A stretch of DNA of 64,000 nt from Solibacillus sp. R5-41 (lineage in GTDB: Bacteria; Bacillota; Bacilli; Bacillales_A; Planococcaceae), in NCBI RefSeq assembly GCF_002736105.1, contig NZ_CP024123.1, positions 3,982,001-4,046,000 of the forward strand, read 5' to 3'. Below the pieces are notes generated by a model. It ran no database searches. It saw nothing but the letters and a program-made list of their open reading frames with translations, and was not told the origin of the DNA. Each line of letters opens with the position of its first letter. Positions within the stretch are counted from its first letter, which is position 1. The translations under genes were made by a program, and so were the position numbers. Shown here in pieces: positions 7,477-58,156 of this stretch.

Positions 7477-7545
7477 TCAATTACGCCTTGGTTTAATTGT
7501 GTCAGGATTTTGAATTGTACTTGCACAATTCTGCTGAATGAAGAA
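7477..7545 (+). repeat. Mosaic intergenic repeat, short copy A
   Basis: Begins with ATCAATTACGCCTTGG, continues with CAGGATTTTGAATTGTACTT and ends CTGCTGAATGAAGAAAAAAG. The first part matches copies at 18.0, 23.3, 29.8, 37.8 and 50.2 kb; the end matches copies at 29.7 and 37.9 kb. The middle modules present in longer copies are missing. It fills the entire space between the rhomboid stop codon and the terminator. Confidence 0.75.
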
Positions 7546-7582
7546 AAAAGGACTGCTCTCCGATTACGAGAGCAGTCCTTTT
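7546..7582. terminator. Bidirectional terminator between rhomboid and ydbT
   Basis: GGACTGCTCTC and GAGAGCAGTCC form a stem around CGATTAC, with A-rich and T-rich flanks. It touches the ydbT stop codon, so it can end both converging transcripts. Confidence 0.8.
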
Positions 7583-9047
7583 ATCGTTCATACCATTGTA
7601 ATATGGTCTCTACTTCTCGTTGTTCTAGGTGGCGAACCGTAGCAGATGCACCCGCCAATCCTGACATCACAACAATTCGTGCAGAGCCAATTTGTCTTCT
7701 TTTCTGAAAATAATTTTGACTCCCTTGTGTAACTTGAATTCTTTTTTTCTCAGCAAAGAAAGTCACGCGACTAATTGTACGAGAAACAATCGTAATTTGC
7801 TGTCCATTTAACAAATAGCCGTCCGTCTTAAATTGCCATCTTCCTAGCAAAATAATCGGGACAATTAAAAGAAATGACAATAAGCCATACGGGTAAAAGA
7901 AATACGATAATGCCGCAATTAATGGCACCATCCATACAAAATCAATGCGGTAGAAAAAAGGTTGCGCTCTTTTTGGCGGTGTCACTTCTGGTGTCATCGT
8001 AAAATCAATATGTGGGAATAACTCACTCAAAGGCTTTATGAGCATTTTTTTAGAAATAAGCGGAAATAACACAATTTTTTTATCTTTCTCGCCACTAAAG
8101 CTCCCACCCGCACTTTCCACAATAACCGTCGCCAAGCCTAACATTTGTCGGAATGGATTTTCTACTATTTTTACAGCTTGCACGCGATGTAATGGAATCG
8201 TTACTCGTTTTTTCTCTAATAATCCACGCGTTATAATTAAACGTTTATTTTGCTCCGTAACAGTAAAATCATAATAATTCAAAAACGTAAGAGCAACCGA
8301 AATGAGCCAAGCAGCAATAAATGCAAATGCAATTAAAATCGACACAATAATAACACTGAATTTCATCAAAATGGCCATTTCATTGTAAATATCATCAAAT
8401 GGAATAAACTGAGAAAATTGTGAAACTAAAGCGAATATACCCGCTAATACAACCCCGATACCACCTGAAGTTGTCGCTAATAACAACAATTCTTTCGGAT
8501 GCATTTTATGGATAATAAATGAAGGTTCTTCTGATGGTGCCTCTTGACCTTCCTCCATTGAAGAATCTATTTGCTTTACTTTTTTCATTTGGATTTCAAT
8601 TTCATCCGCTGCAAGTCTTGTCACAGCTGTTAGTTCTGCTTCTGGTTTGCCATTTTTACTACCTGCCGTCTCCACCTGTACTTGAACTAACCCAAAAATC
8701 CGATGAAAAATGCCTTCTTTGTAGTTTAAGCTTTGGATACGATCAAACGGAATATAACGCTTCTTTTTTACAAAAAGACCATATTCTACTCGCAATTCAC
8801 GATCCTCAAACCAATACGTAAAGGTCGCCCATTTAATTAAGCCGTTTACCATCGTCCAAATAACAATGACAAATAAAAAGATTAACGGAACCATTTCACT
8901 AAAAAAACTTTCATCCCGGTAATTAAAATTTAAGGTAAAACCATTGGCAACTACAATAATAACGATGGGAATCAACAAATCTTTTAACGCTTTTACAACA
9001 TTAATAATCGCCGTTACCGGATGAAGTTTATATTTTTCATTAGACAT
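7581..9047 (-). CDS. ydbT: YdbT-like membrane protein with bacterial PH domains (bPH2)
   Basis: A 488-residue membrane protein. Paired hydrophobic segments near residues 15-70 and 195-255, and again near 375-405, alternate with bPH2 domains; the phrases RVEYGLFVKKKRYIPFDRIQ and ITRGLLEKKRVTIPLHRVQ are the typical repeat starts. B. subtilis YdbT has the same layout. YdbS/YdbT have been linked to resistance against amylolysin-type peptides in related bacilli, but the molecular role is unknown. It overlaps the end of ydbS by 8 bases and is probably translated with it. The third PH-like repeat starts near residue 405. Confidence 0.9.
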   Translation of the reverse strand: MSNEKYKLHPVTAIINVVKALKDLLIPIVIIVVANGFTLNFNYRDESFFSEMVPLIFLFVIVIWTMVNGLIKWATFTYWFEDRELRVEYGLFVKKKRYIPFDRIQSLNYKEGIFHRIFGLVQVQVETAGSKNGKPEAELTAVTRLAADEIEIQMKKVKQIDSSMEEGQEAPSEEPSFIIHKMHPKELLLLATTSGGIGVVLAGIFALVSQFSQFIPFDDIYNEMAILMKFSVIIVSILIAFAFIAAWLISVALTFLNYYDFTVTEQNKRLIITRGLLEKKRVTIPLHRVQAVKIVENPFRQMLGLATVIVESAGGSFSGEKDKKIVLFPLISKKMLIKPLSELFPHIDFTMTPEVTPPKRAQPFFYRIDFVWMVPLIAALSYFFYPYGLLSFLLIVPIILLGRWQFKTDGYLLNGQQITIVSRTISRVTFFAEKKRIQVTQGSQNYFQKRRQIGSARIVVMSGLAGASATVRHLEQREVETILQWYER

Positions 9048-9519
9048 CTTCTTCAGCCACCTTCGCTAATTCAGAAATTTTGGTTCTTAGCATGTCGGCA
9101 TCCTCTGTTAACAGCATCGGAATGGTATGTACTGTCGCAGCTGAAGATATAGAAATATTAGCTAAATTATAATTTTTTAAAATCGGACCTTGCTCTGTAT
9201 CGACATGCTGTACGCGTATCATCGGAATTAAAGTACGCTTCACAACGAACAAACCACTTTGAATTTCAATTTCTTGTTCTCTTACTTCATAACGCCAAAT
9301 TTCCCAACGTATATTCGGAAAAACAATAATAGATAAAATTATCGATAATACAACGATACCTACAGCAACCCAACTAATCCACTGTGACCATTCATATTTA
9401 ATCGCAAAAAATACAACGGCCGCTGCAATAAGTGCTAAAATAACAGATTGAATAATTCCATACAATCGCCAGACCGTTTGAGCCTTTTTAGGTAATTGAT
9501 ATTTTGGTTGTGCTCTCAT
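9040..9519 (-). CDS. ydbS: YdbS-like membrane protein with one bPH2 domain
   Basis: A 159-residue protein with two membrane segments (about residues 19-40 and 47-68) followed by a PH-like domain that begins with YEVREQEIEIQSGLFVVKRT. The domain is the same type as those in the adjacent ydbT, and the two genes overlap, so they probably act as one complex in the membrane. A start at 9519 (ATG) lies in front of AAAGAGGTGTGAAAG-like sequence. Position and order match B. subtilis ydbS-ydbT. Biochemical function is unknown. Confidence 0.9.
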   Translation of the reverse strand: MRAQPKYQLPKKAQTVWRLYGIIQSVILALIAAAVVFFAIKYEWSQWISWVAVGIVVLSIILSIIVFPNIRWEIWRYEVREQEIEIQSGLFVVKRTLIPMIRVQHVDTEQGPILKNYNLANISISSAATVHTIPMLLTEDADMLRTKISELAKVAEEDV

Positions 9520-9623
9520 CTTTCACACCTCTTTCTATTACCTATTGTATACGTTTTACTTGATAATTTGTTTCATTTTACCACTTACTTTTCTGATGAT
9601 TTACGAATTCCCCCATTATTTCG

Positions 9624-9660
9624 AAAAAAATACACACCAACGGAAAAACGTTGATGTGTA
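9624..9660 (-). terminator. Terminator after cshA
   Basis: A stem of TACACA/TGTGTA and CAACG/CGTTG around GAAAAA (9631-9660), followed on the minus strand by seven T residues (A run on the plus strand at 9624-9630). It lies just after the cshA stop. Confidence 0.75.
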
Positions 9661-9675
9661 TTATAGATAAGGCTA

Positions 9676-11226
9676 TTAGTCTTCGCGACGTTGACGAGGA
9701 CGACGATCGCGATTAGGAGCACTTCCTTCACGACGACCACCGCCATTGCCACCTTCACGACGACCTGAATCACGGCGTCCGCCACCTTCACGACGACGAT
9801 CTCCACCGCCACCGCCACCGCCACGACGGTCATTACCACCGCGACTTGAGCGACCGCGATCATTACCACCACGACCACCGCCGCCATTAGAACGGTCACG
9901 ACGCATTGGTAATGGACGCTCTTCTGACAATGTGATTGGTGTTGCATCTGGCTCTTTTGTAATTGATTTTAATGCAGCAGCTACTAAATCAAGCGCTTCA
10001 TTATTTTCTAATAATCGAGCAGCTAATTCACGGTATTTGCCGATGTCTTCATTTTGTACTAGGTTCACCAGATTTTTCATTGCATCTTCTTGTAAACCTA
10101 CTAATGCTTCCTCTGATGTTGGAGTACGTAATGGTGTCATACGTTTTTTCGTTGTTTCTTCAACGATACGTAAGTAACCCATTTCACGTGGTGTTACAAA
10201 TGTTACAGCAACACCTGATTTACCAGCACGGCCTGTACGACCAATACGGTGAACATATGATTCTGGATCTTGTGGAATATCAAAGTTGTAAACATGTGTT
10301 ACACCCGAAATATCTAAACCACGAGCCGCTACATCTGTTGCGATTAAAATATCAATTTTACCTTCTTTAAATTGACGTAAAACTGAGATACGTTTTGCTT
10401 GGCTTAAGTCACCGTGAATGCCTTCTGCAAGGAAACCACGTAAACCTAATGCTTGGCTTAACTCATCGACACGACGTTTTGTACGACCGAAGATGATTGC
10501 TAATTCTGGCTTTTGAGAATCTAATAAACGAGAAAGTGCGTCGAATTTCTCGCGCTCAGTAGCTTTTACGAAAAACTGCTCAATGTTTTCCATTGTTAAT
10601 TCTTTTGCTTTGATTTTAACCACTTCAGGGTTATTCATGAATGTCTCAGCAATTTTACGGATTGCTGGAGGCATTGTAGCTGAGAATAATAATGTTTGGC
10701 GACTATCTGGAACAGATTCTAAAATGGCATTAATATCATCAATAAAGCCCATGTTTAACATTTCATCTGCTTCGTCTAATACTAATGTTTGTACTTCGTC
10801 TAACTTTAATGTACGACGGTTAATATGGTCTTGAATACGACCTGGTGTACCCACGATGATTTGAGGGTGGTTTTTAAGCGCACGGATTTGACGACCAATT
10901 TCTTGACCACCGTAAACTGATAATAATTTTACGCGCTTGTCATAACCTAATTTATAAAGTTCTTCTGAAACTTGGATTGCTAACTCACGAGTTGGAGCAA
11001 TAACTAATGCTTGGATGTTTGGGTTTTTTGGATCGATCTTCTCGATTAACGGAATACCGAATGCAGCTGTTTTACCAGTACCAGTTTGCGCTTGACCTAA
11101 TACGTCACGGCCATCCATTGCAAATGTAATTGTACCCTCTTGAATTGGTGTTGCTTCTTCAAATCCCATACGTTTAATTGAACGTAATGTAGATTCACTA
11201 ATATTTAATTCTGAAAAATTTGTCAA
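9676..11226 (-). CDS. cshA: DEAD-box ATP-dependent RNA helicase CshA
   Basis: A 516-residue helicase with all core motifs in order: GFEEATPIQ (Q motif), AQTGTGKT (motif I, about 46-53), PTRELA, DEADEM (motif II), SATMP, RGLDISG and [11 protein letters not shown]. The tail from about residue 440 is a low-complexity RGG/RGR region rich in Arg and Gly, expected to bind RNA. CshA acts in mRNA decay and ribosome assembly. I chose the TTG start at 11226, 9 bases after GGAG, because the upstream TTG at 11235 is only 1 base from that site; the product then begins MTNFSELNI, like B. subtilis CshA (MTITFQDFN). A structured leader precedes it. Confidence 0.95.
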
Positions 11227-11458
11227 ACTATTCAATCTCCTTTTTCCTTATAAGTCGACAAATGGTTACATTTTCAGATGACATGGCGGCAAATTCGAGC
11301 CAATGTATATGGAACGTTTCCGTTACTTTAAAATTATCTCTACATTACTTGTAGAGTCTATTATACGAAAAGGAAAGCCCGGTCTTTGCCGAGCGGTTCA
11401 ATTCTACGATTCTAATTTGGATTAAAAGTATAAAAAATAGAATAAAACCGTTAAGTTC
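11227..11458 (-). promoter_or_regulatory. cshA promoter and structured leader
   Basis: On the minus strand a TATAAT lies at 11360-11365, with no good -35 box 17 bases before it. Transcription would begin inside or just before the hairpin CTCTACA-AGTAA-TGTAGAG (11338-11356), leaving a leader of about 125 bases before the TTG start. A hairpin at the 5' end of an mRNA often raises stability; this is inference. The part 11366-11458 shows nothing else I recognise. Confidence 0.45.
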
Positions 11459-11495
11459 AAAAAAAAGTACTCTTCATCATAAAGTCTGAAGAGTC
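11459..11495 (-). terminator. Terminator of the esterase gene
   Basis: ACTCTTCA and TGAAGAGT pair around a 10-base loop (about 11469-11494), followed on the minus strand by eight T residues. It lies about 90 bases past the stop of the hydrolase gene at 11583. Confidence 0.65.
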
Positions 11496-11582
11496 CTCGC
11501 ACAAAATGTATCCATTGCTTACATCAGTCTAACATGGGTTGTAGCAGTATGCAATGATAATGCCTGTATCTAAATAATCTGT

Positions 11583-12287
11583 TTATTTATTGTCTGTTTT
11601 AATGAAAATCAATACTTCATCAAACCACTCGTCACAATCATCGCTATAACAAATATGATGCTTCCCACATTCTGAAAGATAAATTAATTTTTCTTTTGAT
11701 TGTATTTGGTCATACAATATTTGTGCGGTTTGGCTCGGCACAATGCCATCCAGTAATCCTTGCACAATAAATGTTGGACACTTTATATTTTTAATATAAG
11801 GAGAAGTTTTTTGAACAACTTTCATAAATTCAACAGTCGCACTAAAAGGGACATTTAGAAATTTAAATTTATAGCGGGCAAACAATTCATTTTCTTGCAG
11901 TTTTTTATTCATTGCATCTGTGGCCATTATACGAAAATCCTTTACTAATTGTGATGGACTTATATACTTTGCTGCAGCGCTTAATAGGACTAATTTCTTC
12001 ACCTTATAGCGATTCGCCAAATACATAGCGATGACGCCCCCCATCGAAAACCCGACAATAATAATCTCATCCACTTGCTTTGCCAATCGGCGGTAAGCAA
12101 TTTCGGCGTCCATTAACCAATGTTGCGCTTTATACCCTTTCATTTCTAGATGCTCTGCCTCACCATGCCCCGACAATGTTGGAATCGCCATCATCCAACC
12201 TGTCTTTTTTTGTACATAATCTGCAAAAGGTTGAACTTCATATGGTCCACCGGAAAATCCATGTAAAAAAAGTACGCCAATCGACAT
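11583..12287 (-). CDS. Alpha/beta hydrolase, carboxylesterase or monoacylglycerol lipase type
   Basis: A 234-residue cytosolic hydrolase. FLHGFSGGPYE near the N-terminus gives the oxyanion-hole HGF motif, GFSMGG contains the nucleophile Ser81, GLLDGIVP near residue 186 carries the probable acid, and GKHHICYSDD near 210 the catalytic histidine. This is the Est30/YvaK kind of carboxylesterase, which cleaves short and medium acyl esters; the natural substrate is unknown. A single-gene transcript seems likely, with its own terminator at 11459-11495. The start is ATG at 12287. Confidence 0.85.
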   Translation of the reverse strand: MSIGVLFLHGFSGGPYEVQPFADYVQKKTGWMMAIPTLSGHGEAEHLEMKGYKAQHWLMDAEIAYRRLAKQVDEIIIVGFSMGGVIAMYLANRYKVKKLVLLSAAAKYISPSQLVKDFRIMATDAMNKKLQENELFARYKFKFLNVPFSATVEFMKVVQKTSPYIKNIKCPTFIVQGLLDGIVPSQTAQILYDQIQSKEKLIYLSECGKHHICYSDDCDEWFDEVLIFIKTDNK

Positions 12288-12387
12288 TTAATCAACTCCA
12301 AAATATATATTCTAATTCTATATAATTGTTATAATATGTATAAATTTAAATAAAAAGGATTTTCTTATAAAATCATTTTCAATAACC

Positions 12388-12820
12388 ATGAAAATCAACT
12401 TACCCATTATTAGTAGTATTACCGTAATCGCAATTGCAATTGCAATCATTATCAGTGTCAATTACCAAATTGAAAAAACGATGCTGCAAACTTACAAAAA
12501 ACCTTTTAAACCTTTCAACAAGTATCTATCAACATTTAGATGCTCGATATGAAGGTTCTTGGGCTACACAAGATAATACCTTATCCAAAGGGAATGGAAA
12601 TGCAGAATCCATAACTCCCACTCTTAGATGACATGGGCTCTGATATGAATATTGTTTCTACCATTTTCTCAAATGATACACGCGTTGCTACAAATGTCCA
12701 AGTCAAATGGAAAACGTTCAATTGTTACACAAGCAAGTAAGGGAAATTACAGTTTCCGCAAAATCATTAGCACAAGCTTCAGAAGGGCTACAAATATTAA
12801 TTAACCGCTTCAAATTTTAA
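12388..12820 (+). pseudogene. Decayed methyl-accepting chemotaxis protein
   Basis: Pieces of one receptor appear in order on the plus strand. From 12388: MKINLPIISSITVIAIAIAI, an N-terminal membrane segment. After a frameshift near 12490: YQHLDARYEGSWATQDNTL, then SKGNGNAES, a Cache-domain signature; then near 12640 MNIVSTIFSNDTRVATNVQ, the usual Cache ending. Last, from about 12735: REITVSAKSLAQASEGLQIL and NRFKF with TAA at 12818, the typical C-terminus of the signalling domain. The second membrane segment, HAMP and most of the signalling domain are deleted. An intact receptor is near 560 residues, so about three quarters is lost. Confidence 0.8.
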
Positions 12821-12876
12821 AAAGAGGCGTAAATGTTATCCCAAATGGGTATTTGAGCCTGAAATGCACAAAATAA

Positions 12877-12919
12877 AAAATGCCGAAACGTTAATTAAAC
12901 ATCGTTTCGGCATTTTTAA
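12877..12919. terminator. Bidirectional terminator after murF
   Basis: AAAAATGCCGAAACG and CGTTTCGGCATTTTT pair around a 12-base loop. It lies between the receptor remnant and the murF stop and serves murF on the minus strand; it may once have ended the receptor gene too. Confidence 0.8.
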
Positions 12920-12950
12920 ATTTAATTCATTTTGTTAATCACGGGTTTTA

Positions 12951-14321
12951 TTAGACAGCCCCTGCACCTGTAATTATATTTTCCAACCGCATACCACGCG
13001 AACCTTTTACTAATAGTAATGATTGCTCCGTTGCGTGCTGTTTAATTTTTTCAATAATGACTGCATAATCTGCTTCTGTATATAAAAGATGCTGCTCATC
13101 AATAACAGGTTTCAATTTCTCATAAAGCCACTTCATACGAGGTCCGAACAGACAAACATACGTCGTTTTTTCAGGATCAATTACTTCTACCAATTCTTCA
13201 TGGAATCGCTGTTCATCTTGCCCAAGCTCAAGCATATCTCCAAGCACTAACCATTTCTCATCACGAATGGCCGTTTGCTGAATAAAATGAATCGCAGCAT
13301 GCATCGAAGTTGGCGCAGCATTGTATGCGTCATTAATAAAGAATTTATCGCCAACCGTTATTAATTGCATGCGCATATCCGTTAACGTTACCTGCTTTAA
13401 TGCCTCACGAATTTGTTCCTCTGATAAACCAAGCGATTTGCTTACAAGCATTGCGCTTAGCGTGTTTTTCACTTGATGTTCACCTAAAACAGATATGAAA
13501 AAGTTTCCGTCTATTAATCCTTCGCTGTGGAAATGACTTCCCGACTCCGATGTCATAATAGCTGAAGCAATTAAATCCTGCCCCTTTGTAAAACCAAATG
13601 ATTTCGTTTGTAATGAGTCATTTTTTGCAACTAACTGTTGGAGTAATGGCTCGTCACCATCAAAGAACAGTATGCCACCGGGTTCTAAACCTTGAACAAT
13701 TTCAAACTTCGCCTGTGCAATACCTTCACGGGAGCCTAAATCTTGCATATGCGCTTCCCCGATATTTGTAATAATTGCATAATGGGGGCGAGCAAGCTTT
13801 GTTAAATATTCAATTTCACCAAAGCCACTCATTCCCATCTCAAGCACTGAGATTTCTGTATCTTCATCTAATTGTAAAATCGTAATGGGTAAGCCCAGTT
13901 GATTATTAAAATTACCAATCGTTTTTTGAACTTTAAAATACGGTGTAAGTGCACTTGCTAAAATATCTTTTGAAGATGTTTTTCCGTTCGAACCAGTAAT
14001 ACCAATAAAAGTCGCTTGATGTTCGTTGCGGTAAGCAACCGCCATTTCTTGTAACGCCACTTCAGGATCATCAATGAAAATTAATGGATAGTTTGCTGGT
14101 GGATTCGGTTCATCCTTCATCCATAAAGAAGCTGCTGCCCCTTTTTCAAAAGCCTGCTCAACGTAACGATGCCCATTGACCGCCTCTCCTCGGAAAGGAA
14201 TAAATAAATCGCCTAGCTGAATCGTACGCGTATCAATCGAAACACCCGTTACGACCGTATCTTGAAATAATTGATGCTCAATTTTTAACCACTTTGCAAG
14301 TTGCTTTAAGTTTTTTTTCAC
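12951..14321 (-). CDS. murF: UDP-N-acetylmuramoyl-tripeptide--D-alanyl-D-alanine ligase
   Basis: A 456-residue Mur ligase. The ATP-binding P-loop reads GITGSNGKTSSKD near residue 106-118, VLEMGMSGFGEIEYL follows in the central domain, and NDAYNAAPTSM is the family motif near residue 310. The enzyme adds D-Ala-D-Ala to the UDP-MurNAc-tripeptide, the last cytoplasmic step before lipid I. It lies 12 bases downstream of ddl on the same strand, so substrate maker and user are co-transcribed, as in B. subtilis. The next gene downstream is a terminator, so ddl-murF is a two-gene unit, followed in B. subtilis by cshA, which lies a short way off here. Confidence 0.96.
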   Translation of the reverse strand: MKKNLKQLAKWLKIEHQLFQDTVVTGVSIDTRTIQLGDLFIPFRGEAVNGHRYVEQAFEKGAAASLWMKDEPNPPANYPLIFIDDPEVALQEMAVAYRNEHQATFIGITGSNGKTSSKDILASALTPYFKVQKTIGNFNNQLGLPITILQLDEDTEISVLEMGMSGFGEIEYLTKLARPHYAIITNIGEAHMQDLGSREGIAQAKFEIVQGLEPGGILFFDGDEPLLQQLVAKNDSLQTKSFGFTKGQDLIASAIMTSESGSHFHSEGLIDGNFFISVLGEHQVKNTLSAMLVSKSLGLSEEQIREALKQVTLTDMRMQLITVGDKFFINDAYNAAPTSMHAAIHFIQQTAIRDEKWLVLGDMLELGQDEQRFHEELVEVIDPEKTTYVCLFGPRMKWLYEKLKPVIDEQHLLYTEADYAVIIEKIKQHATEQSLLLVKGSRGMRLENIITGAGAV

Positions 14322-17963: not shown

Positions 17964-18033
17964 TTCTCTACACCTCAACTTTTCCTTTATTAGAATATAT
18001 AACGAATTGTTTTCATTTAAAGTTGCAATTAAA

Positions 18034-18216
18034 TCAATTATAACTCGGCATAATTGCATCTAGAAACAGTTCTGCGCTTGCACAAAGAACTCGATTCCGT
18101 GACATCCGCCGGAGGCCTAACTTCTTACAACGGTTATTTGAACACACACTGTATAGTAACCTAAAACCAGCATTCATCTCTCCACCTATAGAGTTGAGGG
18201 ACTTCTGCCGAAAGAA
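18034..18216 (+). repeat. Mosaic intergenic repeat, long copy B
   Basis: All modules appear in order: TCAATTATAACTCGGCATAA, CATCTAG, a GTTCT...AGAAC hairpin around GCGCTTGCACAA, GTGACATCCGCCGGAGGCCT, GGTTATTTGAACACACACTG, CATCTCTCCACCTATAGAGT and ACTTCTGCCGAAAGAA. The same order occurs on the minus strand in copy E at 29.7 kb. It sits upstream of the small gene at 17826. Confidence 0.8.
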
Positions 18217-18601
18217 ATCAAAGGTCTGACCTTCTACTTCTTTATAATAACACTTAATTTCACAGAAGAATCTTTCGAATTTGTTACAAAATTAAGAACT
18301 TTATCTTTTTTAGTGTAACCTTATTACATTTAATGTAAACCCCTGTTTTGAATTTTTTTCAATAAGTTTATTTTTCATTTCCAAGAACAAAACAATCAAT
18401 ATACCTTGGCATTATTGACTGGTATCGAACAGTTAGATAGCGTTTTTACCACTTTTCACTATAAGCATAGTAAAAAACCTTTATTAATAAATTTTAATCA
18501 TGTTTAATGACAAATACAAGTGGAAATATTGTAGTATCACGCAGTTTTCTGTATGAAACAACTATTCACTAATTGGACGTTATTTCAGAGGAGGGGCCTT
18601 T
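18217..18601. other. Intergenic region upstream of the DUF1963 gene, with one operator-like palindrome
   Basis: This 385-base AT-rich stretch has no gene. A perfect 15-base palindrome TTACATTTAATGTAA lies at 18324-18338, next to a similar half-site (TGTAAC at 18314-18319). The size and symmetry fit a repressor binding site, but I cannot name the regulator and it is about 260 bases from the next start codon. Nothing else stands out. Confidence 0.4.
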
Positions 18602-23293: not shown

Positions 23294-23312
23294 AGTTCAC
23301 CTTCTCAATGTT

Positions 23313-23416
23313 CAATTATGCCTCGGCATACTTGCATACAAATTTGACATTGTGCTCGCATAAAGAACACCTTTCTGAATCTGTGATTTCCGCCGGGGAT
23401 TTAACTTATTTTGAAG
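23313..23416 (+). repeat. Mosaic intergenic repeat, copy D, in the yidC leader
   Basis: CAATTATGCCTCGGCATACT is followed by GTGCTCGCATAAAGAACACC, TCTGTGATTTCCGCCGGGGA and TTAACTTATTTTGAAG. The order is the same as copies B and E without the last modules. It is on the strand opposite to yidC and begins 20 bases upstream of the yidC start codon. A TATACT at 23416-23421 (minus strand) may be the yidC -10 box. Confidence 0.75.
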
Positions 23417-29641: not shown

Positions 29642-29670
29642 GAAAAATACCCCTTTCAAAATGTACGATT

Positions 29671-29864
29671 AACTTGCTTCAGCAGAAGTCTCCCACTTCA
29701 ATTAAGTGTGAGGGGTGAATGCCAAGTATGACCTTAATTCACTGGGAATTCAAACCCAAGCTGAATCAAGTTAAAGCCCCCGACGGATGTCACAGATTTT
29801 TATTGGAGTTTTTCGAGCAAGCTCGAAAAAAATCTAGACAAAAGTTAGCCGAGGCGTAATTGAT
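29671..29864 (-). repeat. Mosaic intergenic repeat, full copy E
   Basis: Read on the minus strand: CAATCAATTACGCCTCGGCT, TTTTGTCTAGA, a TTTTTCGAGC-TT-GCTCGAAAAA hairpin, TCTGTGACATCCGTCGGGGG, CTTTAACTTGATTCAGCTTG, GGTTTGAATT, CATTCACCCCTCACACTTAA and GACTTCTGCTGAAG. At 194 bases it is the most complete copy. It is in the same direction as ypuA and fills the space between the cvfB terminator and the ypuA ribosome site. Confidence 0.85.
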
Positions 29865-37777: not shown

Positions 37778-37798
37778 TGTCCTCTTCCTTTCATTAAT

Positions 37799-37898
37799 CA
37801 ATTACACCTTGGCTAACTCTTGTCCAGATTTTGAATTGTGCTTCTTTAGCCAGAGTTCCTCTATTCAGCTGGTATTTGAACACACACTGAAAGAAGAT
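37799..37898 (+). repeat. Mosaic intergenic repeat, copy F, upstream of exoA
   Basis: CAATTACACCTTGGCTAACT, CTTGTCCAGATTTTGAATTG, TTTAGCCAGAGTTCC, GGTATTTGAACACACACTGA and AAGAAGATAAAA in order. The AGCCAGAGTTCC module is shared with copies G and H, and GAACACACACTG with copy B. It lies between the exoA ribosome site and the murB terminator. Confidence 0.75.
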
Positions 37899-50225: not shown

Positions 50226-50234
50226 TATCAATAT

Positions 50235-50382
50235 CATTTACGCCTCGTCGCAATTGCGTCCATATTTTTCCAAGACAGAAAAACTCCTCTAAATAATTGT
50301 GACATCCACCGGTGCTTTGGGCCAACACGATGTTGGTCACTCATGCGTTGCCGCACGACGCGGCGTTCCTAGCCAGAGTTCC
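50235..50382 (+). repeat. Mosaic intergenic repeat, copy G
   Basis: TTTACGCCTCGTCGCAATTG, TTGTGACATCCACCGGTGCT, then GCCAACACGATGTTGGTCAC, TCATGCGTTGCCGCACGACG and AGCCAGAGTTCC. The CCAAC-ACGAT-GTTGG part is a small hairpin. The last three modules match copy H at 57980 with few changes, whereas the first two match copies A-F. Confidence 0.8.
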
Positions 50383-50412
50383 ACTACAAGCAATTTAAAA
50401 GACATTGAGGCT

Positions 50413-51374: not shown

Positions 51375-51976
51375 CTTTTCTTAAGTTTCTTTTTTCTTGA
51401 TTCATACCAAATAACACATACAATGAACCAACTGTAGCCCATGCTCCATCCTGCAATAACATCCGTTGCAAAGTGGCGGCTTTCTGCAATCCGTGATAGT
51501 CCTATTAAACAAGCTAATAGGATAGCAGCAATCCAAACGATTTGAATTTTCTTTTTTTCCTTAGCGATTTGTGAAAAAATAAATGCAAGTGTAAATAAGT
51601 ACAGTACACCCGACATTGAATGCCCTGATGGAAAACTAAAAGAAGTCAACTGATCTATGATTTCCGGACGAGGACGTTCAAAAATTCTTTTTAATACTTG
51701 ATTTAGTGCGCTACCTACTGCAAATGTAAGCAAAATGAAGATCATGCCATGATAGTTTCGCTCGCGTTTCCATAAATAAAGAAAAGCAATCAATCCAACC
51801 GCTACTACAAATATCGGCTCTCCAATATAATGAAATAAAATAATGAATTCATTTCCAGTTAGTAATGTAGCTATTTTATCATCAAACGCATTCATTGCCG
51901 TCGTATTATAAGTGAATGCCATTACGATAAAAATAATGCCCGTTACAATTGCTAATGGATAAGCCCATTTTTTCAC
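51365..51976 (-). CDS. PAP2 family membrane phosphatase
   Basis: A 203-residue protein with six membrane segments. The three PAP2 motifs are complete: KRIFERPRP, SFPSGHSMS and SRIAESRHFATDVIAG, giving the catalytic Lys, Arg, His and Asp set on the outer side. It removes phosphate from lipid phosphates; undecaprenyl diphosphate or phosphatidylglycerol phosphate are possible substrates. The terminator hairpin overlaps its stop codon. ATG at 51976 has a weak upstream GGAA site. Homologues in B. subtilis include YodM and YwoA, and this is more like YodM in length. Confidence 0.9.
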   Translation of the reverse strand: MKKWAYPLAIVTGIIFIVMAFTYNTTAMNAFDDKIATLLTGNEFIILFHYIGEPIFVVAVGLIAFLYLWKRERNYHGMIFILLTFAVGSALNQVLKRIFERPRPEIIDQLTSFSFPSGHSMSGVLYLFTLAFIFSQIAKEKKKIQIVWIAAILLACLIGLSRIAESRHFATDVIAGWSMGYSWFIVCVIWYESRKKKLKKRNT

Positions 51977-52077
51977 ATAAATTCCTACTTCCTAATATTA
52001 AATATGCTAACATTATCTTATCATATACATAGTAAACGATAAAAAATGATTTAAAGTTTCCTACTGCTCATTCCATC

Positions 52078-52109
52078 AAAAAAACAACAGGGAGTATTTC
52101 ACTGTTGCT
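52078..52109 (-). terminator. Terminator after the haem monooxygenase gene
   Basis: CAACAG and CTGTTG with flanking A/T pairs around GGAGTATTTCA; A residues at 52078-52084 make the minus-strand T tail. It lies a few bases past the stop of the gene at 52118. Confidence 0.6.
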
Positions 52110-52117
52110 TCTGTCTA

Positions 52118-52450
52118 TTATTCAACTACTGTATAATTCGTATTTTCCATTGAAATAACGAATTCTGGTTTTGGCGGCTTACCACCATGCTCTTTAATTT
52201 TTGCTTTATGTCCTGCAATATGCTCGGGACTCTTTTCCCAATTTTTCCATACTTCTTCAGATTCCCAGCGAATAATCATGACTACCTCATCTTCACCGCG
52301 GCGAACTTTTTTTTGTAATAGTTCACGTCCGATAAAGCCTGGTTGCCTTTCTAATATAGATGGGCCTTCATCTGGTTTTTGGCTAAATCGTTCAATAATT
52401 TTATCTGCATTGCCTTCCGTTAACGTCCATTTACGAATTTGTACAAACAT
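52118..52450 (-). CDS. hmoA: HmoA-type haem-degrading monooxygenase (ABM superfamily)
   Basis: A 110-residue dimeric alpha+beta barrel protein. MFVQIRKWTLTEGNADKIIE, LERQPGFIGRELLQKK, EVVMIIRWESEEVWKNWEKS and HIAGHK match B. subtilis HmoA, which opens haem to release iron. NWEKSPEHIAGHK contains the Trp and His that flank the haem site. It lies 60 bases downstream of the yclQ-like siderophore gene, and no Fur box or promoter is visible between them apart from the terminator at 52471-52503, so partial co-expression is plausible. ATG follows GGGGG at 10 bases. Confidence 0.85.
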   Translation of the reverse strand: MFVQIRKWTLTEGNADKIIERFSQKPDEGPSILERQPGFIGRELLQKKVRRGEDEVVMIIRWESEEVWKNWEKSPEHIAGHKAKIKEHGGKPPKPEFVISMENTNYTVVE

Positions 52451-52470
52451 TATTATATAGCCCCCTATTT

Positions 52471-52503
52471 TAAAAAAGCCGCCTTCAATTAGAAGGACGG
52501 CCT
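52471..52503 (-). terminator. Terminator after yclQ
   Basis: GCCGCCTTC and GAAGGACGGC pair with one bulge around AATTA; six A residues on the left give the T tail for the minus strand. It ends the yclQ message before hmoA. Confidence 0.7.
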
Positions 52504-52510
52504 ATTTATA

Positions 52511-53512
52511 TTATTTTAAAGCGTTAATAATTTCATTTACTTTTTCAAGCTCAGAAGTTAAACCGCCACCTGCTAAGTACCAAAGCGCACCGTTTAAGTA
52601 TACGATTTTACCGTTTTTAGCAGCGTTCGTTTTATTTACTAAATCATTATTAAATGCTTCTGAAATGTTTGATTCTTCACCCGTAGCGGCCATACGATCA
52701 ACTACGAATAAAATATCTGGGTTAATTTCTAAAATTTGCTCATAGCTGATTTGTGCACCATGCGTTGAGTTTTCTAATGTATCATCCGCAGCTGGGAATC
52801 CATAAACGTTGTGTACGAAACCAAAGCGTGAACCTTCACCTGGGCCATAAGCAGAAATTGTTTCATTGTAAAGTGTTACTAATGCTTTTTCATCTGAGCT
52901 AGAAGAGATTGATTTTACTTCTTCAATAGCTGCTTCAATTTCAGCAATCTTTGTATCTACTTCAGCTTGCTTACCAAAAAGATCTGCAGCGATTTGAGTT
53001 GAAGCTTTAAATGTATTCCAGTAATCCGTGCTTGTAGTACCAACGAATACAGTTGGTGCTATTTTTGATAATTCTTCATACGCATCTCCTTGACGACCAG
53101 AGATGAAAATTGCATCTGGTTTCATTGCAGCGATATCTTCAAATAATGGCTCTTTTAATCCACCTGCGTTTGCATATTTGTCATCCGCATATTGGCTTAA
53201 ATGTTTTGGGAAGTTCCCTTTTGCAACAGCTGTAACTTCAACGTCTAATGCAGTTAATGTATCTAAGAAACCATAGTCAAATACTACAATTTTTTCTGGT
53301 TTTTTTTCAAACGTTACATCTGCATAGTTTGAATCTGTTGATTTAATTGTCATTGGGTATGCTGAAGCAACCTCTTCTTTACTCGTGTCCTCTGTTTTAG
53401 CAGAGTTTTCTTTCTCTGAATCCTTTGAAGTGGCATCATCATTTGAACCACATGCAGCTAACATTAAAACAAGCATTGATAAAATAACAGTCATTAACTT
53501 CCAGTTCTTCAT
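52511..53512 (-). CDS. yclQ: YclQ-like petrobactin-type siderophore-binding lipoprotein
   Basis: A 333-residue class III solute-binding lipoprotein. The lipobox is LMLAACGS at about residue 18-25, followed by an acidic Ser/Glu/Lys linker. KIVVFDYGFLDTLTALDVEV, DKYANAGGLKEPLFEDIAAM and KPDAIFISGRQGDAYEELSK match B. subtilis YclQ, which binds petrobactin and its precursors. It delivers ligand to the YclN-YclO permease. ATG at 53512 follows AGGAG at 10 bases. It has its own Fur-controlled promoter, separate from yclNOP. Confidence 0.92.
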   Translation of the reverse strand: MKNWKLMTVILSMLVLMLAACGSNDDATSKDSEKENSAKTEDTSKEEVASAYPMTIKSTDSNYADVTFEKKPEKIVVFDYGFLDTLTALDVEVTAVAKGNFPKHLSQYADDKYANAGGLKEPLFEDIAAMKPDAIFISGRQGDAYEELSKIAPTVFVGTTSTDYWNTFKASTQIAADLFGKQAEVDTKIAEIEAAIEEVKSISSSSDEKALVTLYNETISAYGPGEGSRFGFVHNVYGFPAADDTLENSTHGAQISYEQILEINPDILFVVDRMAATGEESNISEAFNNDLVNKTNAAKNGKIVYLNGALWYLAGGGLTSELEKVNEIINALK

Positions 53513-53568
53513 CTGTAAATCGCTCCTATTCATATATGTAAATTCGTTTTATTCATTTAAGTTCCCAA

Positions 53569-53626
53569 TGATTATCATTATCATTTGAACAGTACTCATT
53601 ATATCGAGATTGATTCTCAGTGTCAA
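53569..53626 (-). promoter_or_regulatory. Consensus promoter and Fur box of yclQ
   Basis: On the minus strand TTGACA (53621-53626) is followed after 17 bases by TATAAT (53598-53603), a perfect sigma-A promoter. The Fur box TGATAATGATAATCA (53569-53583, minus strand) differs from the 7-1-7 consensus TGATAATNATTATCA at two places and lies 14 bases after the -10 box, where iron-bound Fur would block initiation. Confidence 0.9.
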
Positions 53627-53785
53627 CTAGTTTTGTAAATTAAATCAATTATTATAATAAAAGTACATTATGAGGGATTTTTTTGATTTTAAATAAATAT
53701 TTCCCTTTTATTTCCTCGGTAAAAATGAAAATAACGTTGCATCATGTCCTTATTTAAAGAATCCCACATCATACTATTCAAAAAA

Positions 53786-53823
53786 GAAAAACACCATTTC
53801 GACTGAATCAAAATGGCATTTTC
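53786..53823 (-). terminator. Terminator after yclP
   Basis: CACCATTT and AAATGGCA pair with flanking A/T runs around a 14-base loop, 17 bases beyond the yclP stop. It separates yclNOP from the yclQ promoter. Confidence 0.65.
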
Positions 53824-53839
53824 ACATAAACATTACGCT

Positions 53840-54604
53840 CTAATGAGAATTAAAATAAACACAAATACGGCAGCCATCTTGTTCTTGAACAGGGATGTCC
53901 ATATCATAAATTTGCTTTAATGCAGAAGAATTAATGATTTCGTTTGTTGGACCATCTTTGACAATACGTCCATCTTTTAAAGCCACAATACGGTCGGAAT
54001 AAACCGATGCGAAGTTAATATCATGCAATACGATAATAACCGTTTTCCCTAACTCATCTACAAGCTTACGTAAAATTTTCATAATTTGAACCGAGTGCTT
54101 CATATCTAAGTTATTTAAAGGCTCATCTAATAGCACATATTCTGTATCTTGTGCGATGACCATTGCAATGAAAGCACGCTGACGTTGACCACCAGAAAGC
54201 TCATCTAAAAACTTGTCACTCATGTCCACTAAGTTCATATACTCCATCGCACGGTCTATATGCCCATTATCTTCTGCTGTAAGACGACCACGTGAATAGG
54301 GGAAACGCCCAAATGACACAAGCTCACGAATCGTTAAACGTACATTCATAAAATTTGATTGCTTTAAGATCGATACACGTTTTGCAAATTCCTCGGATTT
54401 CATTTTACGTACATCTGCTGTATCCAGTAATATTTCACCTGTATCTGCATCTAATAAACGACTCACCATCGAAAGTAGCGTCGATTTTCCAGCACCATTT
54501 GGCCCGATGAATGATGTAATTTTACCTGTTTCTATCGTTACATGTACATCTTCTACAACGGCTTTTTTACCGAAGTATTTGCTTAATCCTTTTACTTGAA
54601 TCAT
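53840..54604 (-). CDS. yclP: YclP-like ferri-siderophore ABC transporter ATP-binding protein
   Basis: A 254-residue ATPase. Walker A is GPNGAGKST, the signature is LSGGQRQRAFIAM, Walker B is YVLLDEPLNNLD, and the switch histidine is in VIVLHDINFAS. It drives iron-siderophore import by the two permeases encoded just upstream. The ATG overlaps the yclO stop (ATGA), so the genes are coupled. RQLTAED-like linker LTAEDNGHIDRAMEYM matches B. subtilis YclP. The C-terminus ends CRICVYFN, and no unusual features are seen. Confidence 0.94.
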   Translation of the reverse strand: MIQVKGLSKYFGKKAVVEDVHVTIETGKITSFIGPNGAGKSTLLSMVSRLLDADTGEILLDTADVRKMKSEEFAKRVSILKQSNFMNVRLTIRELVSFGRFPYSRGRLTAEDNGHIDRAMEYMNLVDMSDKFLDELSGGQRQRAFIAMVIAQDTEYVLLDEPLNNLDMKHSVQIMKILRKLVDELGKTVIIVLHDINFASVYSDRIVALKDGRIVKDGPTNEIINSSALKQIYDMDIPVQEQDGCRICVYFNSH

Positions 54605-55557
54605 CCTGCTGACCTACTCTCTTTTAATAGTAAATAAATAAAGTAAATGCCACCAATGAAGTTAATAATAACACTCAATGTTGTACTAAATTCGAATAGA
54701 TGCTCGACAATAAATTGCCCACCGACTAATGCAATAATACTAATTAAACTTGCCCCCACTATAAGCACCGAATGCTTGTACGTTGCAAAAAATTGATACG
54801 CTAAGTTGGCAACAATTAATCCAAAGAATAGGATTGGACCTACAAGCGCTGTAGATGTTGCAATTAATACAGAAGATAAAATAAGTACATTCATCACAAT
54901 ACGATCATAGTTAATGCCCAGGTTAATTGCTGTATCGCGACCTAAAGACATAACATCTAACTTATTTAATATCGTATACCCATATATAAAGGCAATCGCT
55001 AAAATACCCGCTGCTACCCATACAAGGTCACCATTAACGTTATTAAAGCTTGCAAACATTTTATTTTGCAGACTTGTATATTCATTCGGATCAATAACAA
55101 CTTGCATAAATGTCGTCACGCTACCAAGTAATGTTCCTAAAATCATTCCGATAAGTAATAAAAAATAAATTGGCTGCTTATCTGCTCTAAATAAGAAACG
55201 ATATAAAATCAGTGCGAATAATACCATCGCTCCAATTGAAATTACAAAGTTAAAATATTTATTTAATACTAATATAGAAGAAGATCCTAAGAAGAAATAA
55301 ATACATGTTTGCACAACCATATACATTGAATCTAAGCCCATGACAGAAGGCGTTAAAATTCGGTTATGTGTAATCGTCTGGAATACAACGGTTGAATACG
55401 CAATAGCTACACCGGTTACAATCATTGCCAAGACGCGAATCATTCGACGTGGAAACGCATAGTCAAAGCTACCTTTAATATCATATAAACCATAAAGAGC
55501 GATACAACCGATTGCCACAATCGCTAAAATGGCTAATTTCAATCCTGTTTTACGCAT
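54601..55557 (-). CDS. yclO: YclO-like siderophore ABC transporter permease
   Basis: A 318-residue FecCD-type permease with about nine membrane segments. FPRRMIRVLAMIVTGVAIAY is the cytoplasmic start of the domain, NRILTPSVMGLDSMYMV the conserved loop, and STALVGPILFFGLIVANLAY the coupling region with a G-P-I-x-F-x-G-L motif that contacts YclP. It overlaps yclN by 8 bases and yclP by 4. With YclN it forms the membrane channel of the petrobactin-type importer. Confidence 0.94.
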   Translation of the reverse strand: MRKTGLKLAILAIVAIGCIALYGLYDIKGSFDYAFPRRMIRVLAMIVTGVAIAYSTVVFQTITHNRILTPSVMGLDSMYMVVQTCIYFFLGSSSILVLNKYFNFVISIGAMVLFALILYRFLFRADKQPIYFLLLIGMILGTLLGSVTTFMQVVIDPNEYTSLQNKMFASFNNVNGDLVWVAAGILAIAFIYGYTILNKLDVMSLGRDTAINLGINYDRIVMNVLILSSVLIATSTALVGPILFFGLIVANLAYQFFATYKHSVLIVGASLISIIALVGGQFIVEHLFEFSTTLSVIINFIGGIYFIYLLLKESRSAG

Positions 55558-56497
55558 ATGAACGCCCCCTAAACAACATGATTAAGAAAATCACGCCGCC
55601 GATTACACCGACTGTTAAGTTAATAGGGATTTCATATGGATATATTAAAATTCGACCAACGATATCACATGCCAATAGGAATAATGCACCTAGTACTGCT
55701 GTATGCGGTAATGTTTTCTTTAAATTATCCCCTTTATAAATCGATACGATGTTTGGAATAATTAATCCGACAAACGGAATTAAACCGACTGTTAGAATAA
55801 CTGTTGTTGAAATAAGTGCTACTAAAATGAGCCCCAAATTTACAACAAGGTTATAACGAACACCTAAGTTTTTCGCAAAGTCCTCTCCCATACCTGCAAC
55901 TGTAAAACGATTTGCATAAAGATACGTTATGATAATAACAGGGACGCTTAAATATAATAATTCATAGTTTCCTTTAATAACTAATGTAAAGCTCCCCATT
56001 AAAAAGGCTGAAACGTTTTGTAAAATGTCTGCCTTATAAGCAAAAAACGTCGTCATGGAAGAAATAATATTTCCAAACATTATCCCTACAAGGGGGATAA
56101 AAATTGCATCTTTAAACTTAATTCGGTTTAACAATTGCATGAATAGCATTGTACCTAATAATGCAAAAATAAAGGCTAGCACAACTTTTTCAGATTGTGT
56201 CCCACCTGTATAAATCATCGCAATTAACACACCAAATTTTGCCGCATCATCTGTTCCTGCAGTTGTTGGAGATACAAATTTATTTCTACTTAAAGATTGC
56301 ATGATTAAACCAGCTATACTCATGCCGACACCCGCTAATATGATTGCAATCAAGCGCGGTATACGGCTAATTAAGAAGACTTCTGTCTCTTCTGATGTAA
56401 AATCAAGCAAATCAAGTGGTGTAATGTCCTTGGCACCTAGAAATAACGAAATGAATGATAGAACAACAGTAGCGACAATCAAATACCATAATCTCAT
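55550..56497 (-). CDS. yclN: YclN-like siderophore ABC transporter permease
   Basis: A 315-residue FecCD permease and first gene of the yclNOP operon. SRIPRLIAIILAGVGMSIAG, LIMQSLSRNKFVSPTTAGTD and the coupling segment LTVGLIPFVGLIIPNIVSIY are the family motifs. The ATG follows AGGAG. Its promoter carries a 14 of 15 match to the Fur consensus, so transport is iron-repressed. B. subtilis yclNOPQ is one operon, whereas here yclQ has been placed under a second promoter after a terminator. Confidence 0.94.
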   Translation of the reverse strand: MRLWYLIVATVVLSFISLFLGAKDITPLDLLDFTSEETEVFLISRIPRLIAIILAGVGMSIAGLIMQSLSRNKFVSPTTAGTDDAAKFGVLIAMIYTGGTQSEKVVLAFIFALLGTMLFMQLLNRIKFKDAIFIPLVGIMFGNIISSMTTFFAYKADILQNVSAFLMGSFTLVIKGNYELLYLSVPVIIITYLYANRFTVAGMGEDFAKNLGVRYNLVVNLGLILVALISTTVILTVGLIPFVGLIIPNIVSIYKGDNLKKTLPHTAVLGALFLLACDIVGRILIYPYEIPINLTVGVIGGVIFLIMLFRGRSYA

Positions 56498-56537
56498 GTC
56501 ATTCTCCTGTTTTCCTTCTTTTTTTAATGACTCTCAT

Positions 56538-56596
56538 TGAAAATGATTATCATCTTTATCTGTTTCAATTATAGCTAGGTAGTACTAGAAAATCAA
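56538..56596 (-). promoter_or_regulatory. Promoter and Fur box of yclNOP
   Basis: On the minus strand TTGATT (56591-56596) is followed after 17 bases by TATAAT (56568-56573). The Fur box, TGAAAATGATTATCA on the plus strand (56538-56552), matches TGATAATNATTATCA at 14 of 15 positions and lies just after the start site. The remaining gap to 56763 holds nothing recognisable. Confidence 0.9.
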
Positions 56597-56763
56597 ACAG
56601 TCCTTAATAACTTTTCTTCATTTGTTATGGATTAGCACAGACGAAAGGACTTATTCAAGAAATCTACTGTATTTTCGATTGTTTTAGAGAATTCAAGGTT
56701 TATAAGAATGGAGATTATTTTTTGAAGGATTAATGTACTTTCTTTTAGGGGGATTCTTATAAG

Positions 56764-56847
56764 GAATCTAATAAGTTATTTGCTTATTTTGACTTGCTAA
56801 GCACAGGAGCCGCACAGCTTTGTTGTTACAAATCTGTACGGCCTGTC
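56764..56847 (+). repeat. Hairpin repeat, family 2, copy 2
   Basis: GAATCTAATAAGTTATTTGC, TTATTTTGACTTGCTAAGCA and CAGGAGCCGCACAGCTTTGT follow the same order as 19474-19551. Here CCGCACAGCTTTGT pairs with ACAAATCTGTACGG around TGTT. It ends 5 bases before the stop codon of the racemase gene and may terminate that transcript. Confidence 0.7.
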
Positions 56848-56851
56848 ACTA

Positions 56852-57961
56852 CTATATTCTAAATACGTTTTTCTCAGTGCAATATTTTTCAATTGCTTGC
56901 TCGTTTACTTTATAGCCGAGACCTGTTGTGCTTGGTACTGTTATGTAGCCATCTTCTACTATAACTTCAGGTAATATAATATCCTCATACCAATAACGTT
57001 CAGAAGCGGCTGTATCTCCAGGCATTGTGAAGTTGGATAAACTTGTGAGTGCGACATTTTGTGCCCTTCCAATCCCCGCTTCAAGCATGCCGCCACACCA
57101 TACAGGTAAGCCATGTTCACTGCATAAATCATGGATGCGCTTTGCTTCGCTTATTCCGCCAACTCGTGCAATTTTAATGTTGATTACGCCGCAGCTCCCT
57201 AACTGAATAGCCTTGCGTGCATCTTCATAAGAAGTAATGCTTTCATCTAAGCAAATCGGTGTTTGAATTTGCTGCTGTAACGTTGCATGATCAATTAAGT
57301 CATCGTGGGCAAGCGGCTGTTCAATCATCATTAATTGAAATTCATCGAGTTGCTTTAATAATTCGATGTCCTCTAGTGTATAAGATGAATTCGCATCGGC
57401 CATTAATGGCACAGTTGGAAAGGCATCTCGAATCGTTCGAATTAACGCTATATCTTTCCCAGGTTTGATTTTGACCTTTATTCGTTTATAGCCTTGCTCT
57501 AAAAAATCACGAATGGTTTCGATTAATTGCTCATTTGTTGGTTGCAATCCAATGCTAATGCCTACCTCAATTTTTTCCGTAATGCCCCCAAGTGCTTTAG
57601 CTAGTGTTTGATTTGTTAGCTGAGCATAAATATCCCACACCGCACCTTCAATAGCCGCTTTTGCCATGTTGTTACGACGAATTGGACGAAATAGTTCATA
57701 TACCTCATCTGGATGCGCTAATTGTTGCCCTAATAATCGCGGAATTAAAAAGTCCTCTAACATATGTAATGATGTTTTTAGTGTTTCTTCTGTATAAGAA
57801 GGTTCTTCAAATGCCACCCCTTCCCCCCAGCCAATTGCACCAGTTTCGTCCTTTGCCTTAATGACTATAAAACGCTTATTCTGCATTGTTCCAAGACTCG
57901 TTGTGAATGGAGTTTTCATACACATTTCAAGCTGATAAATTATAACTTCAACCAATTTCAT
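56852..57961 (-). CDS. N-succinylamino acid racemase / o-succinylbenzoate synthase (enolase superfamily)
   Basis: A 369-residue enolase-superfamily enzyme with all catalytic residues: Lys162 and Lys164 in IKVKIKPG, metal ligands Asp189 (MADANSSY), Glu214 (MIEQPLA) and Asp239 (CLDES), and Lys263 in [23 protein letters not shown] is the NSAR/OSBS group loop. These enzymes either make o-succinylbenzoate for menaquinone or racemise N-succinyl amino acids. No men genes are near; the gene upstream is a GNAT acyltransferase of the succinyltransferase type, so the racemase role is favoured. ATG at 57961 follows GGAGAG. Possible product annotation as menC is common. Confidence 0.88.
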
Positions 57962-57979
57962 CTCATTTCTCTCCTTTAT

Positions 57980-58156
57980 GCCAACACGATGTTGGTCACT
58001 CAGGCGTTGCCACAGGACGTGACGGGTTTAGCCTTTGTTCCCTTCCTTTAGCCAGAGCTCCACTGTACATCGAGCATTTGATCACCCAATGAAAAAATTC
58101 AAAACACCGTATCCATCTCACCATCTACAGAGATGAGAGTTTTCTTCTGAACGAAA
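57980..58156 (+). repeat. Mosaic intergenic repeat, copy H
   Basis: GCCAACACGATGTTGGTCAC, CAGGCGTTGCCACAGGACGT and TTTAGCCAGAGCTCC match copy G, while CATCTCACCATCTACAGAGA and TTTTCTTCTGAACGAA match the last modules of copies B and E. It begins 19 bases upstream of the racemase start codon and separates it from the acyltransferase gene. Confidence 0.8.

Follow-up and report, generated by a model that had tools for sequence, protein, structure and literature searches.

Non-autonomous derivatives of IS200-IS605 insertion sequences (IS) are known as PATEs, and one of the pairs formed between the IS608 left end and its target is G+19:C-1. In IS608, A+16 and A+17 pair with T-3 and T-4, respectively, A+42 and T+43 on the 3' side of the hairpin take part in triplets (PMC5934647), and the element inserts into the lagging-strand template (PMC6006769). 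For the BOX repeats, it is reported that about half of the insertions occur in all strains and that 60.8% lie on the leading strand (PMC3049150). Bacillaceae-1 has been listed as a candidate RNA (Weinberg 2010; PMC2864571), and BSGatlas contains eight instances of the corresponding Rfam family, RF01690, in B. subtilis (PMC8208703). Here we analyze a stretch of 64,000 nucleotides (nt) from Solibacillus sp. R5-41 (contig NZ_CP024123.1, positions 3,982,001-4,046,000; hereafter the window), in which a first-pass annotation had noticed a modular repeat in seven intergenic gaps. We put the probability that this repeat is a modular, non-autonomous transposable element that moves in single-stranded form, as IS200/IS605 insertion sequences do, at roughly 0.78.

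Results

Copy number and architecture of the repeat

The window is part of a genome of 4,283,411 b in a single contig (G000), which was compared with that of a related species (G003; a syntenic gene is 88% identical between the two). Allowing up to three mismatches, the 19-mer AATCTGTGACATCCGCCGG occurred at 170 places in G000 (86 forward, 84 reverse) and at 85 forward and 89 reverse places in G003, and the reversed pattern, used as a control, gave 0 matches in either genome. This is a repeat family far beyond chance. Its modules were matched by nhmmer at all seven places that the annotation had grouped together. The module order it had described, the exchange of whole modules between copies and the alternative block in two of them (R6 and R7, both matching RF01690) were borne out, and some hundreds of copies are estimated for the whole genome, nearly all of them intergenic. 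The annotation was right, and the family is larger than it stated.

Across 464 kb of G000 (a 400-kb stretch plus the window), we counted 47 clusters, which take up 1.43% of one piece and 1.39% of the other. Linear extrapolation gives 434 copies in G000. Because the 400-kb stretch was already known to be rich in matches when it was chosen (it makes up 9.3% of the genome and holds 25 of the 170 pattern matches), this value needs scaling by pattern matches (28 of 170 within the 464 kb) to 285 copies, which then make up about 0.9% of the genome. The placement of the copies was assessed with 172 clusters from 868,591 b of G000 sequence, some of it selected around known copies. Only one of the 162 clusters with both neighbours lay inside an open reading frame (ORF) of at least 80 aa. 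The gene pairs flanking 161 clusters (117 ++/--, 21 convergent, 23 divergent) were composed much like all adjacent ORF pairs (521, 120 and 127, respectively), and there is therefore no preference for convergent gaps.

Full type A copies measure about 185-196 nt. In the + orientation of the first-pass annotation, they consist of the palindrome CAATTACGCCTCGGCGTAATTG, a nested hairpin, the highly conserved single-stranded segment TGTGACATCCGCCGG, a hairpin with the apex GGGGTTTGAACCCC, a 22-nt hairpin and, as the end, CTGCTGAAGCAAG. Type B copies share the 5' half (A5) and continue with a block of about 80 nt (B block) that contains RF01690. On the top strand, the layout is 5'-TTAA/CTTGCTTCAGCAG-AAGT-(22-nt hairpin)-AT ... 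GACG(CAATTACGCCGAGGCGTAATTG)AT-3', with the slash marking the junction. A5, one or two B blocks and the 3' half (A3) were combined in 28 of the 172 G000 clusters (sum of three patterns). Short copies of 68, 76 and 92 nt keep both ends, so the middle is dispensable. It is built of exchangeable hairpin modules, one of which is the Rfam family Bacillaceae-1.

Empty sites and target

Stretches of G000 and G003 contained 81 clusters, some of which are parts of one element, so that the counts are not independent. Thirty-three fell in an alignment gap, 7 inside an aligned block, and 41 were without usable synteny. Of the 33 gap clusters, 27 left at most 40 nt in the other species and six left 44 to 150 nt, two of the latter representing one shared site (R3 and its G003 counterpart). 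The seven in-block clusters comprised R5, which is present as a decayed copy in G003, five small insertions missing there, and one G003 fragment of ambiguous status. Most comparable copies are thus unshared between the two species. For the window, this leaves two shared copies (R3 and R5) and two with clean empty sites (R1 and R4); the remaining three, R2, R6 and R7, have no counterpart in G003, but their gaps have diverged. These empty sites support the earlier suggestion of a mobile element.

An empty site reads left flank/TTAA, and the filled site left flank/ATCAATTACG...GCAAG/TTAA. In a formal placement of 28 cases, 13 had no recognised end or a right flank that could not be placed, 15 yielded a junction tetramer, and 10 had both flanks. 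The offset in these ten was 0 in five cases, +/-1 in four and 49 in one. The 15 empty-site tetramers were TTAA (eight), TCAA (three), and TTAG, TTCA, AAAA and GTAA (one each); the background frequency of TTAA is 0.93% per base. Insertion takes place immediately 3' of a TTAA-like tetranucleotide; this target is kept once, on one side, and is not duplicated. With a crude end finder that misplaced some ends, no pairing of flanks stood clearly above the shuffled control for target duplications. The annotation had likened the repeat to a miniature inverted-repeat transposable element (MITE); in the strict sense this had to be given up, since neither terminal inverted repeats (ends read by eye) nor a target duplication was found. 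Integron attC sites and Helitrons were also dropped: the inserted segment begins with ATC and not with TT, and a G/TTAA target occurs.

Guide and target

If the IS608 pairing applies, a TTAA target calls for AAnT immediately 5' of the left hairpin, and AAnT is present. It occupies +14 to +17 (+16 to +19 in IS608) and is followed by the 22-nt hairpin and then AT; the pairs that fit are A+14:T-3, A+15:T-4 and T+17:A-1. Of 121 aligned rows, 70 have intact ends; in these, the four guide positions were conserved at 0.90, 0.90, 0.67 and 0.93, with most variation at the free third base. The values for the full set of 121 were 0.89, 0.90, 0.68 and 0.79.

A subfamily targeting TTAT carries AAnA instead of AAnT. 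We examined this covariation in 201 distinct copies (G000, G003, ACRSM and further named loci), 126 of which entered a 2x2 table of target against fourth guide base (g4); 20 other combinations among TTAn targets and 55 copies with other tetramers fell outside it. TTAA occurred with T in 83 copies and with A in 4, and TTAT with A in 31 and with T in 8 (Fisher p=8e-18). Over all 201 copies, Watson-Crick pairs were counted for c4-g4 (152), c2-g1 (147), c1-g2 (118) and c3-g3 (27), the last being the position that the IS608 rule leaves free. In ACRSM, a Sporosarcina genome in which copies reach 98% identity, g4 was A in 23 of the 26 TTAT copies with A or T at this position, and T in 2 of 2 TTAA copies. 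G000 alone contributed 52 TTAA copies with T and 2 with A, and 4 TTAT copies with A and 2 with T. Guide and target switched together once or a few times, in the direction that the rule predicts. That the tetramer is target and not element was shown directly for the TTAA type only.

Orientation relative to replication

Among the 100 of 170 G000 matches listed, the first half of the contig carried 13 plus and 33 minus copies, and the second half 41 plus and 13 minus (p 2.5e-6). The GC skew of the flanks was positive up to 2 Mb and negative after, flipping near mid-contig; the plus strand is therefore the lagging-strand template in the first half of G000. The corresponding numbers for G003 were 12 plus and 29 minus, and 27 plus and 7 minus (75 exact matches; p 2e-5). 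Here, 100 of 174 places were listed, and the 25 one-mismatch places left out all lay in the first half (20 minus, 5 plus). The strand reading 5'-TTAA/CTTG was on the lagging-strand template in 74 of the 100 listed G000 copies and in 56 of the 75 in G003. The top strand thus lies preferentially on the lagging-strand template.

The seven copies in the window

R4 (29673..29864, minus strand) is a full type A copy of 192 nt that is absent from G003 (E 6.3e-24 and 1.4e-24). Its target tetranucleotide TTAA (29669..29672, plus strand) is also found in the G003 empty site. The AAGT at 29686..29689 (plus strand; top strand +14 to +17) stands directly 5' of the left-end hairpin (29690..29711, plus strand; +18 to +39) and, by analogy with the IS608 pairing, would act as the guide. 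R2 (18033..18217, plus strand) retains both halves in diverged form (E 1.5e-6 and 9.5e-7); it is flanked by TCAA, and the corresponding site in G003 shows an additional difference of 49 nt.

The other five copies, R1, R3, R5, R6 and R7, are truncated or internally deleted. R1 (7476..7543, plus strand; 68 nt, E 2.9e-4) has lost internal sequence and kept both ends; its flank is AAAA, and the G003 empty site has TTAA. R3 (23311..23404, end approximate, plus strand; E 4.7e-9) is a 5' half, and its gap in G003 holds a different, longer derivative, so that the site is shared. R5 (37797..37896, plus strand; E 3.3e-4) is truncated and recombined, joining the start of A5, part of the B block and the apex of A3. 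R6 (50233..50393, end approximate, plus strand; block E 2.4e-22) is of type B, A5 plus the Bacillaceae-1 block, with a truncated 3' half. R7 (57979..58154, ends approximate, plus strand; E 2.4e-15) combines the Bacillaceae-1 block with A3 and has no 5' half. The Bacillaceae-1 modules of R6 (50322..50388) and R7 (57981..58047) lie on the minus strand, opposite to the copies, and match RF01690 with 59.9 and 64.7 bits (cut-off 35); these are two of the seven window copies.

Distribution in other genomes

A single DNA query matched 18 of 41 genomes, including 15 of the 16 genomes of the genus (G000 counted), and an exact 16-mer search of genome contigs returned at least 120 stretches. Among the matches listed, modules were present in Sporosarcina, Solibacillus, Psychrobacillus, Lysinibacillus, Metasolibacillus, Filibacter and Siminovitchia and in two species labelled Bacillus, and were absent from the remaining, mostly high-GC, 16-mer stretches. 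The named relatives with the repeat are mostly Planococcaceae. Fragments of loci aligned with 75.8% identity to Solibacillus palustris and 79.2% to Metasolibacillus meyeri, and over 93 nt the identity between Sporosarcina and Psychrobacillus modules reached 97.8%. Five loci labelled Arthrobacter beigongshangensis (L084, L097, L126, L129, L163) carry Planococcaceae repeats; because their G+C content is 39-45%, this label is doubtful, and label or assembly may be wrong. Plasmid and phage records gave no match to the repeat, and IMG/VR contained nine stretches with the 16-mer, one of them with both halves of the element. No description of the repeat was found in the literature, among open-licence papers and the matches listed.

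Search for a transposase and alternative explanations

Several observations weigh against single-strand movement in the IS200/IS605 manner. Only six TTAT copies occur in G000 and G003 together, four of them with g4=A (p 0.016), and in these genomes position +4 associates more strongly with the target than the guide base does (p 8e-5); the covariation is therefore one between subfamilies rather than of many independent events. AT stands exactly at +40/+41 in 29 of 85 unaligned TTAA copies. By the simple IS608 rule, the right end, CR=TGAT, would need a CAnA guide, and GACG is found. The replication halves of G003 were assumed, not measured, and orientation is confounded with gene orientation: copies had the expected orientation in 29 of the 44 convergent and divergent gaps (14/21 and 15/23) and in only 9 of 17 contexts with lagging-strand genes, so this control for the lagging-strand preference is suggestive only. 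Finally, the Y1 transposase (PF01797) was not found in G000, G002 and G015 (13 of 26 genomes searched were positive), nor was TnpB (6 of 16 genus genomes positive); a profile for REP-associated tyrosine transposases (RAYTs; REP, repetitive extragenic palindrome) had no match in G000, G002, G003 and G015, the four high-copy genomes (71 of 151 family genomes positive); and no repeat copy enclosed a gene in 77 TnpA/TnpB loci.

The searches of G000 recognised no mover; they were confined to Y1, RAYT and TnpB and took in neither other classes of transposase nor reverse transcriptases. PF01797 was present in 16 of 22 named carriers, and at least ten of the 24 matches were a RAYT-like protein. In G003, a single Y1 match, interrupted by an in-frame stop, and 19 TnpB-domain matches were seen. 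The idea of long copies bearing a transposase was dropped: it yielded four left-right pairs of 320-6000 nt (L063, L092, L129, L152), the longest lying between two separate elements. The IS200 copies of the genus were set aside, their ends being unrelated (11 copies). The closest match to copy L002 within G000 was 91% identical. Either the mover disappeared once the last burst was over, or it is present only intermittently, or our models missed it.

We consider it unlikely that an old family was moved by a DDE or IS110-like transposase or by a reverse transcriptase, with the strand bias arising through some other link to replication. The failure to find a Y1 gene in G000 would fit such a history, and a bias in orientation may by itself not be confined to HUH enzymes. 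However, no target duplication was found, the tetranucleotide target is one-sided, and the guide both matches it and covaries with it.

Somewhat less likely still is a REP-like element moved by the RAYT of the family, which we rejected. A RAYT-like Y1 protein of about 195-230 aa with an HxH motif is encoded in the 71 positive genomes of the 151 sampled, in many as a single copy (loci L270-L278, L284, L285, L214, L290-L319), and a repeat copy directly follows the RAYT gene in 3 of 30 loci; two of these three are also among the 8 of 48 Y1 loci with a module match at E<=0.05. However, the four high-copy genomes gave no RAYT match despite their many copies, no module match lay within 1.5 kb in 27 of the 30 loci, and several RAYT genes are followed by another palindrome (GTGCCAGGCAC or GTGTACCTGGTAC), which may be their own REP. 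The REP-like label of the first-pass annotation likewise fails in the strict sense, with no GTAG/GTGG tag (consensus read by eye) and no RAYT match in G000. REPs with a CGTC tag, as described in PMC3733652, were rejected as well: the element has palindrome-CGTC, not CGTC-palindrome.

RNA structure and the Bacillaceae-1 module

The stems show compensatory changes, e.g., CG to TA in 28 instances at one pair and TA to AT in 39 at another. One-step pairs amounted to 276 G-T and 342 A-C overall, to 58 and 53 in the terminal palindrome, and to 18 and 17 (outer stem) and 70 and 38 in the second hairpin. The 22-nt hairpin (48 and 118) and the B block (24 and 45) both lean to the top strand. As these counts are balanced or lean in opposite ways, there is no consistent sign that an RNA from one strand is under selection. 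As single-stranded DNA, R4 folded with z = -4.2, i.e., 4.2 standard deviations below shuffled sequences; its terminal palindrome is degenerate and absent from the predicted fold. Of the small structured RNA that had also been proposed, the covarying stems stood; with no consistent G-U bias, a strand-specific RNA function is not supported, although some RNA role is conceivable, one module being a curated Rfam RNA family.

In G000, 49 of 61 B-block clusters also have A5 or A3. Of 150 genomes sampled from the order, 105 had an RF01690 match; the 14 controls gave one in B. subtilis only. Bacillaceae-1 is probably an exchangeable module here rather than an independent gene. At five loci (L081, L132, L150, L163, L178), the B block occupies the apex of the element's own second hairpin or stands in its place (A5 1-47 or nearby, B block, A5 52/55-85), and a syntenic stretch of G002 shows this arrangement near 43.8 kb. 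In G067, 19 of 20 stretches (L390-L409, centre of each 3 kb) were aligned; L403, which ended at the contig, was left out. They place the Bacillaceae-1 block in two other high-copy repeat families. One of these is MITE-like with the terminal repeats GGCTCTACACCAAAA/TTTTGGTAAAGACC, which may be ISL3-like ends; several copies are near-identical, suggesting recent activity.

A functional structured RNA family, e.g., a Bacillaceae-1 small RNA, spread by recombination is highly improbable. RF01690 scores above the cut-off, the compensatory changes and the fold of R4 speak for it. Against it, the sister species lacks the majority of the copies for which synteny could be used, the G-U bias is not consistent, and RF01690 also sits inside the two other G067 families.

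Discussion

We favour a modular, non-autonomous element that moves as single-stranded DNA. In this model, a Y1 HUH transposase, now lost from G000 or never resident there, would be supplied in trans and fold the element ends. The AAnT guide would pair with a target exposed on the lagging-strand template of a replication fork, at which the element would then be cut and rejoined. A more far-reaching proposal, which we regard as tentative and rather doubtful, is that such repeats form a class of transposase-less, guide-carrying single-strand elements that persists across Planococcaceae by swapping hairpin cargo; Bacillaceae-1 itself might then be a mobile module entering the apices of other repeats, and the movers a transient Y1 enzyme or an unrecognised host enzyme.

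Single-strand movement with a DNA guide offers a specific mechanism for an abundant class of intergenic repeats in G000 and provides a natural covariation of target and guide that is open to direct test. A curated "small RNA" family, RF01690, is suggested to be, at least here, part of mobile DNA. The question arises which mover serves single-strand elements in their hundreds where no transposase was recognised in the genome.

Among known systems, bcr1 of the Bacillus cereus group resembles the repeat in being a repeat with traits of a mobile element; the two sequences were not compared. REP/RAYT systems share dispersed intergenic palindromes, for which movement by a Y1 enzyme has been proposed (PMC3733652, PMC6006769). 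In contrast to these, our element is not 20-40 bp long, lacks the GTAG/GTGG tag and has no RAYT found in G000. The BOX elements of Streptococcus pneumoniae are likewise modular, intergenic, high in copy number and capable of extensive secondary structures; no guide or single-strand target is mentioned in the part of their description at hand (PMC3049150), and this comparison is one of description, not sequence. The B block is RF01690, Bacillaceae-1 RNA, and forms one module of a larger mobile element here.

The closest likeness is to IS608 and the IS200/IS605 family. They share insertion 3' of a retained tetranucleotide, subterminal hairpins, a guide 5' of the left hairpin and the preference for the lagging-strand template (PMC5934647, PMC6006769). 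Specifically, the short fixed target is kept once without duplication (9 of 10 two-sided cases within 1 nt), and the left-end guide is complementary to it. The repeat differs in its hundreds of copies and its internal exchangeable modules, in having no TnpA/TnpB found in G000, neither a Y1 TnpA nor a resident IS with the same ends, and in a right-end guide that does not pair with the right cleavage site by the simple IS608 rule. Because the enzyme and the right-end rule were both tested and set it apart, we do not file the repeat as a member of IS200/IS605 and describe it as an element that behaves as a single-strand transposon of the IS200/IS605 type would, with a DNA guide.

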